Source: Natrinema ejinorense
GTDB lineage: Archaea; Halobacteriota; Halobacteria; Halobacteriales; Natrialbaceae
DNA: 64,000 bases
Reading direction: 5' to 3'
NCBI RefSeq assembly: GCF_002494345.1
Contig: NZ_NXNI01000001.1
Location: 1,674,001-1,738,000 of the forward strand
A program made the translations under genes and the position numbers. A model generated the notes under the pieces. It worked only from the letters and a program-made list of their open reading frames with translations. It was not told the DNA's origin and did no database searches. Shown here in pieces: positions 59,561-61,286 of this stretch; the stretch's first letter is position 1; every line of letters begins with the position of its first letter.

Positions 59561-59818
59561 TTAGCGCTCGCGGTTCATCAGTCCCGGCGAAACGAGGCAG
59601 CCACACGGGCCCGCAGTGGCTCGACCGGGGCCGGTCACGGAGACGATGGCGACGGGCGTGCCACAGCGCGGGCAGTCGGGGAGGAACTGCGAGCCGCGGT
59701 CGACGGGCTCGCTCTCGTCGCGGTCGACATCGCTCGAGTCGGACGCGATGGTGCTCGTGCCGGACTCGGCAGTACTCGAGCCAGGGTCGACATCGCTCGA
59801 GTCAGGATCGCTACACAT
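59561..59818 (-). CDS. Small zinc-ribbon-like protein (85 aa)
   Basis: An Asp/Ser-rich disordered first half with two similar SDSSDVD-type units (from a repeated CATCGCTCGAGTC) precedes a compact CPRCGTPVAIVSVTGPGRAT and CGC motif, a zinc-ribbon knuckle pair, ending VSPGLMNRER. ATG 59818 is used; GTG 59827 is also in frame. Role unknown; small CPxCG proteins are numerous in haloarchaea. Confidence 0.72.
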   Translation of the reverse strand: MCSDPDSSDVDPGSSTAESGTSTIASDSSDVDRDESEPVDRGSQFLPDCPRCGTPVAIVSVTGPGRATAGPCGCLVSPGLMNRER

Positions 59819-59927
59819 CGGACTCACCGCTCGCGACTGTGGTTGGCGCTGGGGCTCGTTCCGTCGGGCGATTCGGGTGTCGTGCGGGACGTTTATATCC
59901 CGGTAGAATGAACGTAATCATGCTTCG

Positions 59928-60019
59928 AAATCCCGGCTATGGGATTTGGAAGCAAGTCTCGGGTGTGCACCCACCCGGGGCGTTTTCATCTAGCCCCCTT
60001 TTCTGGAGACTGCTTCCAG
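59928..60019 (-). ncRNA. Candidate structured small RNA
   Basis: TGGAAGCA (59947-59954) plus GTCTC (59956-59960) pair perfectly with GAGAC (60006-60010) plus TGCTTCCA (60011-60018), a 13-bp stem with one bulged A. It encloses GGGGC/GCCCC (59977-59981, 59993-59997) and GGGT/ACCC. AAATCCC/GGGATTT (59928-59947) is an adjacent hairpin. On the minus strand a TATA (GATATAAG, about 60041-60050) has its centre about 26 nt before 60019, so transcription would start exactly at the outer stem. On the plus strand TTTATA (59892) is also present. Confidence 0.4.
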
Positions 60020-60235
60020 TTTGGGAGTTTATCTGTTGAAACTTATATCTATTGCAAATACGTTGGAAAAGATCCGCGATCGAGCTCTGCCGACCGCCAG
60101 ACACCAGCTCGAGATCCTCCCGTCCCGGACTCGAGACCCCCTCGAGCTGCCCGAAACCGAACCCTCGAGCCGGCGTCTCGATCGACGACGGGGACGACGG
60201 CCTCGAGTCGGCCACCACGACCGACGGCCGCCACC

Positions 60236-61015
60236 TCACTGGGTGACGAGCCGGTAGAAGGAAACCGAGTAGACCAGCAGGAACGCGGAGACGACGCTGC
60301 TGATCAGCGTCGCGACCGCTCCCGCGGCGATCAGCCCGCCCGTCGAGAGGACGGGCAGTCCCAGCTCCGCGGCCTCGGGCGTGGCCAGCATCGACAGGCC
60401 CCCGACGAAGAGGCCGACCAGGCCGCCGCCGACGACCGCCGCGAGCATGTACCCGATCGTCGCCAGGAGGTTCGACCGGACGACGCGGTAACTCCGCTTG
60501 AGGCCGTCGAGCGCCGTCTCCCCATCGATGACGATCGCCTGCGCGTAAAACTGGAGGAAGAAGAGGAACACGAGGTAGATGAGCGCGACGATGGCGGCGA
60601 CCCCGCCCAGCACGACCACCGGGAGCGCCCCCAGCTCCGCGAGGCCGAACAACAAGGCGACGAACCCGGCGAAGAAGAACACCACGCCGAGGATCATGTT
60701 CACCACGAGGAGCAACAGATACGCGATCAGGATCTGGACGTAGTGTGCCTTCCCGGCGGCGACGAACGTCCCCAGCGAACTGCGCCCCTCGAGTGCCTCG
60801 TCGGCCATGCCGATCATCCCACCCTGGAAGAACGGGGCGGCGACCAGGAGGAGCACCGACGCGCCAAGCGACAGCACCGAGGCCAACAGCGGTCTCGTCG
60901 ACTGGAGGAGCACCTGGGGGAGCTGGAACGCCAACAACACGATCGCGGGTACCACGAGTGCGGGCGTCCGAACGAGCGCGCCCGGCGACCGCCGAAGGGC
61001 CTGAACAACTGCCAT
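60236..61015 (-). CDS. Membrane protein, DUF7847/DUF4013-like (259 aa)
   Basis: Six or more helices, glycine-rich, with a central FFLQFYAQAIVIDGE segment followed by TALDGLKRSYRVVRSNLLAT. That last segment, with its SxxVVRxN pattern, is a mark of haloarchaeal poly-TM proteins of unknown function. ATG 61015 starts MAVVQALRRSPGALVRTP; a TATA on the minus strand (CTTATATG, 61045-61055) precedes it. Function unknown. Confidence 0.8.
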   Translation of the reverse strand: MAVVQALRRSPGALVRTPALVVPAIVLLAFQLPQVLLQSTRPLLASVLSLGASVLLLVAAPFFQGGMIGMADEALEGRSSLGTFVAAGKAHYVQILIAYLLLLVVNMILGVVFFFAGFVALLFGLAELGALPVVVLGGVAAIVALIYLVFLFFLQFYAQAIVIDGETALDGLKRSYRVVRSNLLATIGYMLAAVVGGGLVGLFVGGLSMLATPEAAELGLPVLSTGGLIAAGAVATLISSVVSAFLLVYSVSFYRLVTQ

Positions 61016-61286
61016 ATCCTGACTTTTCAACCACCTATACATATAAGTGTGGGAACGACTCGAGGAACGCGGACGCGGGATCGGAACCGACGACGCGACG
61101 GGTGGCCGGAGACCCCGCGACCCGAACCGATCCGGATCGATGGCCCCACGCTCGAGGCCCGAACACGGGGTCGACGAGCGGTCGAACGGGCGGCGGAGAC
61201 CGACCAAAGCGGCGGGCCAGCCGGGCGTCGCCGTCCCAAATCTTCATAGCAGTGTGTGTTGTGCCCCCACAGGGGTGTGCTATCAC

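Follow-up and report, generated by a model that had tools for sequence, protein, structure and literature searches.

The window analysed here, a stretch of 64,000 nucleotides from Natrinema ejinorense, carries on its minus strand a compact unit in which a TATA box is followed by a strongly folded RNA segment, a short basic open reading frame (ORF1) and an overlapping second frame (ORF2) for a small zinc-ribbon protein. The features of the unit, in the direction of the minus strand, are as follows.

60042..60049, minus strand: TATA box of the leader promoter, GATATAAG, conserved as CAGTAGATATAAGT
60006..60017, minus strand: strand D', the 5' strand of outer stem P1, GGAAGCAGTCTC; pairing with B' predicted and backed by covariation (103 copies) and a cross-family duplex test
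59977..59998, minus strand: hairpin P2, GGGGGC...GCCCC, with a GAAA-like loop end; predicted and conserved
59961..59976, minus strand: hairpin P3, GGGTG-GGTGCA-CACCC; its stem hardly varies within the family and covaries across families
59966..59971, minus strand: hypervariable P3 loop, GGTGCA in the window copy; 6-7 nt, the fastest-changing part
59948..59960, minus strand: strand B', the switch strand, GAGACTTGCTTCC; can pair with D' or A'
59928..59947, minus strand: hairpin P4, AAATCCC...GGGATTT, in the predicted fold; the second hairpin of the original prediction
59919..59927, minus strand: strand A' (CGAAGC), running into the ORF1 ATG (59921-59919); complementarity to B' kept across families
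59811..59921, minus strand: ORF1, 36 aa, basic, MITFILPGYKRPARHPNRPTERAPAPTTVASGESDV; its stop overlaps the ORF2 ATG
59885..59902, minus strand: hairpin within ORF1, CGGGA-UAUAAACG-UCCCG, a near-invariant block (CGAGA...UCUCG in copy L071)
59561..59818, minus strand: ORF2, an 85-aa CPxCG...PCGC zinc-ribbon protein, whose family adjoins 63/64 genus copies of the RNA

Between the promoter and the 3' end of the membrane-protein ORF at 60236-61207 (minus strand), in window segment 60020-60235, no feature of the unit was recognised. The original prediction placed a structured small RNA in a 330-bp gap that no convincing protein would explain; the statement about proteins stands except for the lower part of the gap, which is occupied by ORF1, probably coupled to the 85-aa zinc-ribbon ORF.

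Fold, strand and promoter of the RNA

As minus-strand RNA, the 92 nt at 59928-60019 have a predicted folding energy of -45.2 kcal/mol, compared with -27.5 +/- 3.2 kcal/mol in dinucleotide shuffles (z -5.46, reached by 0/200), and the predicted fold reproduces the arrangement proposed earlier, namely a 13-bp stem with one bulge, two hairpins inside it and a further hairpin alongside. The plus strand of the same segment folds nearly as well (z -4.8); since both strands fold almost equally, the choice between them had to come from comparison. In the helix cells of a 103-copy alignment, 98 G-U pairs occur on the minus strand against 8 A-C combinations, which would be G-U if the plus strand were the RNA. 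This 98:8 asymmetry assigns the RNA to the minus strand, in agreement with the original prediction, and a plus-strand RNA was rejected on the same grounds. A plus-strand peptide running through the leader was also rejected, because loop and spacer lengths differ by single nucleotides and reading frames are lost.

Across the 103 copies, the pairing of P1, P2 and P3 holds in 97.9% of cells, and the covariation score exceeds that of all 500 shuffles. Covariation is found in P1 and P2, in counts that ignore shared ancestry, while the P3 stem is nearly constant within the family. Across families both sides of P3 change, with double changes at 4/6 pairs and 0/500 shuffles as high, again in counts that ignore shared ancestry, and P1 is rebuilt with different letters, e.g. 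GGAAC/GUUCC and GAGAG/CUCUC. The proposal of a structured RNA thus gains from the fold and from the covariation of its stems alike, and the compensatory changes among relatives by which it was to be checked do occur in P1 and P2 and, across families, in P3.

Driven by the conserved TATA box, transcription would begin with the first bases of P1. In the window copy the first stem base lies ~24-25 nt past the end of GATATAAG, and GGAAG lies 30 nt from the T of TATAAG. The distance from the first T of TATAAG to the outer-stem GGAAG is exactly 30 nt in 85/97 copies, with variable sequence in between, and such fixed spacing across variable sequence is the pattern of a genuine promoter with a fixed start point. 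The earlier suggestion of a TATA-driven RNA whose 5' end lies at the outer stem is accordingly well supported by comparison, and the conserved TATA box at fixed spacing constitutes a promoter of the RNA's own, as would be sought in a small RNA. In several copies outside the family (L175, L177, L178, L184 and L189), palindromes flank the promoter ~50 nt upstream of the leader; they vary between copies (e.g. CCTACGTAGG, ACCACATGTGGT and CCAATTGCTACGTAGCAATTGG) and resemble operators of different repressors.

Downstream frames and alternative pairing

ORF1 (59921-59811, beginning MITFILPGYKRPAR) sits between the RNA and the zinc ORF, and its AUG closes the structured RNA. The CPxCG...PCGC zinc-ribbon ORF is the next same-strand feature after the leader in 63/64 genus copies. 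Outside the family, the RNA directly precedes other ORFs, most of them with zinc-binding motifs, including a SWIM-like protein, a CARCG micro-protein whose frame overlaps another ORF, a CPVCG protein and others, none of which reaches a Pfam or NCBIfam cut-off. The leader thus lies immediately 5' of coding sequence across relatives, as a module set before different genes, which supports a cis regulatory role. ORF2 of the window matches no family above cut-off in Pfam, NCBIfam or PADLOC; for HVO_2753_ZBP (Pfam PF07754), one paralogue scored 14.7 bits against a gathering score of 33.2, and the window protein gave no match. At L178:1599-3025 the leader is followed by the CPVCG protein and then by a protein of 323 aa whose RAMP-type CRISPR match is very weak (E 0.02-0.09); the two may form a divergent Cas-like pair.

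The stop of ORF1 and the ATG of the second ORF overlap by 1, 4, 8 or 11 nt in 152/175 copies, compared with 7.4% of control stops. The 8-nt class is more telling, as it does not come trivially from ATGA; it accounts for 65/175 copies, compared with 0.4% in controls. This excess over controls speaks for translation of ORF1 and for its coupling to ORF2. An ORF1 stop overlapping the ORF2 start would tie translation of the zinc-ribbon protein to that of ORF1. Part of the nucleotide conservation of ORF1 is due to its internal hairpin rather than to the peptide, which counts against the leader reading: copy L071 keeps the hairpin with altered pairs while its peptide changes from PGYKRP to PRHKRL.

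It is probable that the RNA represents the structured 5' leader of a two-ORF mRNA, acting in cis as a switch, rather than the free-standing small RNA of ~90 nt that had been envisaged. The latter loses ground on two counts: no terminator was seen by eye before the conserved AUG, and the RNA stands directly 5' of the zinc-ribbon ORF throughout almost all genus copies and of other ORFs elsewhere. On the other side, most mRNAs of haloarchaea lack a leader, and control of translation through structured leaders has been called not typical for these organisms (PMC4983044). A processed sRNA released from the leader is possible. Less likely is an independent family of trans-acting sRNAs of ~100 nt, in which the P3 loop would be the antisense seed for each target and the ORFs would be merely linked and served by their own promoter (GATATAAAC inside ORF1). 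The RNA's own promoter and strong fold would suit such a family, as would the diversity of loops within a genome, the U at loop position 2 and the near-invariant TATA-like sequence between the RNA and the zinc ORF. However, A' pairs with B' and always reaches the AUG across families with different ORFs, ORF1 and ORF2 overlap, a terminator is again not seen, and the TATA-like block in ORF1 is not kept in other families, so that we regard this explanation as unlikely. A second promoter (TATA2) for the zinc gene was rejected because the block consists of ORF1 codons and hairpin, although it could possibly serve both the coding and hairpin role and that of a promoter.

For the leader, the central observation is that B', which reads UGGCUUCC in many copies, has complementarity to the 5' strand D' as well as to A' (e.g. 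GGAAGCC-AUG), which yields two mutually exclusive conserved helices, one of them over the start-codon region. One base of B' shows covariation with A' within the family (Fisher p 1e-14, ignoring relatedness) and also with D'. Other families rebuild this arrangement in different letters, with B' GGUCUUCC facing A' AGAAGACC-AUG in one case and B' GGGUUCC facing A' AGAACCC-AUG in another, and in every family seen the AUG abuts A'. Duplexes formed with their own partner are more stable than those with strands from other groups, both for B':A' (mean -10.6 vs -6.7 kcal/mol) and for D':B' (mean -12.9 vs -8.9 kcal/mol). In computed ensembles, openness of the 4 nt ahead of the AUG fell from 0.34 to 0.12 when D' was blocked; the block lowered this openness in 105/174 copies and raised it in 2, whereas a control block lowered it in 54 and raised it in 10.

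Since both pairings are kept by compensatory changes, even before other ORFs, they are read as a translational on/off switch. The 5' strand being synthesised first, D':B' would be the first helix to form. With B' held by D' in stem P1, A' and the AUG would be left freer, corresponding to a putative ON state; with B' paired to A', the start-codon region of ORF1 would be buried. P3, a rigid stem bearing a copy-specific loop, is most likely the site at which a trans-acting factor decides between the two helices.

The hypervariable P3 loop

The P3 loop measures 6 or 7 nt in all 190 family copies, whose search pattern admitted no other lengths; a pattern admitting 4-10 nt gave the same two lengths in 123 copies. 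U is frequent at position 2 and purines on the 3' side, and in loops of 6 nt the first base goes with the last (C with A, U with G). Among close copies the loop evolves faster than the other loops and the spacer: where identity elsewhere is ~97/92/87%, loop identity is 72/50/37%, against a background of 31%. Within a single genome (G018), 25/26 copies carry distinct loops, and between copies with orthologous flanks in G018 and a second genome (G019) the loop is either retained or different. The loops ATACCAG, CTAGGAA and TAGCAG recur at non-orthologous positions in these two genomes, which suggests loop exchange or gene conversion between paralogues.

The simplest reading of this pattern is that the P3 loop serves as an address that differs between copies and is recognised by an RNA or protein acting in trans, with a complementary RNA being the favoured factor. 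Complements of the P3 loop show no excess in the unit's own mRNA or flanks, and no free CGGGTG-N6/7-CACCCG partner hairpins were found in the rest of the genome; three additional G000 hits have no leader features. P3 loops bear a slight same-sense resemblance to tRNA anticodon loops, which looks compositional; in G018, the loop-anticodon match is no better than that of column-shuffled loops (62/500 as good), giving no sign of T-box-like tRNA sensing.

A further possibility is that the leader switch senses a small molecule, an ion or a protein through a conserved core made up of the P2 loop and the P3 stem, and that variation of the P3 loop is functionless drift. Helices that exclude each other around the start codon and conservation of the P2 loop and P3 stem are consistent with such sensing, and hairpin loops may vary neutrally or through local mutation. 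Drift fits poorly, however, with a loop length held at 6-7 nt, with linkage between its first and last bases and with a rate of change that, among close copies, exceeds those of the spacer and the other loops, and no metabolic theme is apparent among the genes downstream of leader copies. This explanation is therefore considered improbable.

The unit also invites comparison with type I toxin-antitoxin modules. In the hok/mok/sok system, a structured leader is combined with a short upstream ORF overlapping the next ORF and with a loop suited to RNA-RNA contact. The window unit resembles it in its structured leader, its ORF1-ORF2 overlap and its loop, and differs in that ORF2 is a zinc ribbon. 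If it worked in the same manner, ORF1 and ORF2 would be coupled, a plus-strand antisense RNA would kiss the P3 loop, and loops would diverge between copies so as to remain independent of one another. The overlap and the copy-specific loops agree with this, as does a plus-strand TTTATA inside ORF1 that points into the leader and is kept within the family; yet other families do not keep that TATA, the ORF2 product is a zinc ribbon rather than a small hydrophobic protein, and there is no PADLOC match, making a toxin-antitoxin function quite doubtful.

Returning to a leader switch addressed through its loop, it may be proposed tentatively, with the odds somewhat against it, that these RNAs constitute a new class of archaeal riboregulators, in which dozens of paralogous leaders per genome share one scaffold, carry their own 6-7-nt address loops and are matched by trans-acting RNAs, providing orthogonal, copy-specific translational control of small, mostly zinc-binding proteins. 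If true, the combination of a rigid hairpin with a copy-specific loop would offer a natural example of orthogonal riboregulators.

Distribution and relation to known systems

A DNA search detected 4 copies in the window's own genome and matches in 26/29 genomes of the genus, with up to 26 per genome. A covariance model (R1) built from 34 copies finds the leader in 82/125 genomes of the family and 23/29 of its genera, some genomes holding at least 25-30 copies, and a broader model (R3) extends the distribution to 136/341 sampled genomes of the class and 60/81 genera, with rough E-values. Among the matches listed for the core pattern, the named genomes all belong to Natrialbaceae (Natrinema, Natrialba, Halopiger, Halostagnicola, Halovivax and others). 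In the window, a search against Rfam 15 returned tRNAs only; the best Rfam match to the leader scored 21.6 bits, with a gathering score of 46 needed, and copies L175, L182, L178, L003 and L154 gave no Rfam match at the leader. A C/D or H/ACA guide or another known RNA was rejected for want of an Rfam match and of conserved boxes recognisable by eye. The RNA is thus best read as a widespread and so far undescribed switch RNA without an Rfam family. If this is true, it would represent an overlooked layer of control, present in about three quarters of the sampled genera at up to ~30 copies per genome. The leader also flags short ORFs that are frequently missing from gene annotation.

Multiple dispersed copies could likewise be expected of a mobile element or interspersed repeat (a transposon end or MITE), with the structure serving DNA transposition. 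In a reciprocal comparison of 26 G018 copies with 26 of the G019 copies, however, 21 have an orthologous flank in the second species; the promoter, the strand asymmetry and the coupled ORFs are also at odds with such an element, and the family-type core was not found in viral contigs. A mobile element is thus extremely improbable. The specific candidates of an IS200/IS605 or MITE end were rejected because most copies have an orthologous flank in the second species and viral contigs lack family-type copies.

As for known systems, the nearest parallel found at the protein level is the brz-brb operon of Halobacterium salinarum, in which, according to passages of PMC3184054 and PMC2253796, a CPxCG zinc-finger gene is co-transcribed with a gene for a small basic protein. 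The likeness concerns the types of gene that are paired; those passages describe no switch leader, and in the window unit the basic ORF precedes the zinc ORF and overlaps it. The C(P)XCG zinc-finger micro-proteins of Haloferax volcanii (PMC6562870, PMC11241148) are similar to ORF2 in size and CPxCG motif, but ORF2 is preceded by a switch RNA, and its link to HVO_2753_ZBP is limited to the one sub-threshold paralogue. At the RNA level, a passage of PMC8241225 cites the fluoride switch as the only experimentally determined natural archaeal riboswitch; in the Thermococcus kodakarensis example cited there, as in the leader, exclusive pairings can expose or bury the start-codon region. Unlike translational riboswitches, the leader has a hypervariable loop and no Rfam match.

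Some copies occur in particular genomic settings. At L009, L164 and L391, 2-3 units stand close together in tandem. Among the plasmid copies L166, L167, L171, L172 and L173, the leader is unannotated, ORF1 or ORF2 is unannotated in several, and annotated neighbours include TFB, a PAS sensor, Orc1/Cdc6, restriction, bacterio-opsin activator and HTH genes. Two Natrinema sp. SYSU A 869 plasmids carry a near-identical divergent gene of 64 aa upstream of the leader at equal distance (L166:3621-3815 and L167:3621-3815, locus minus strand).
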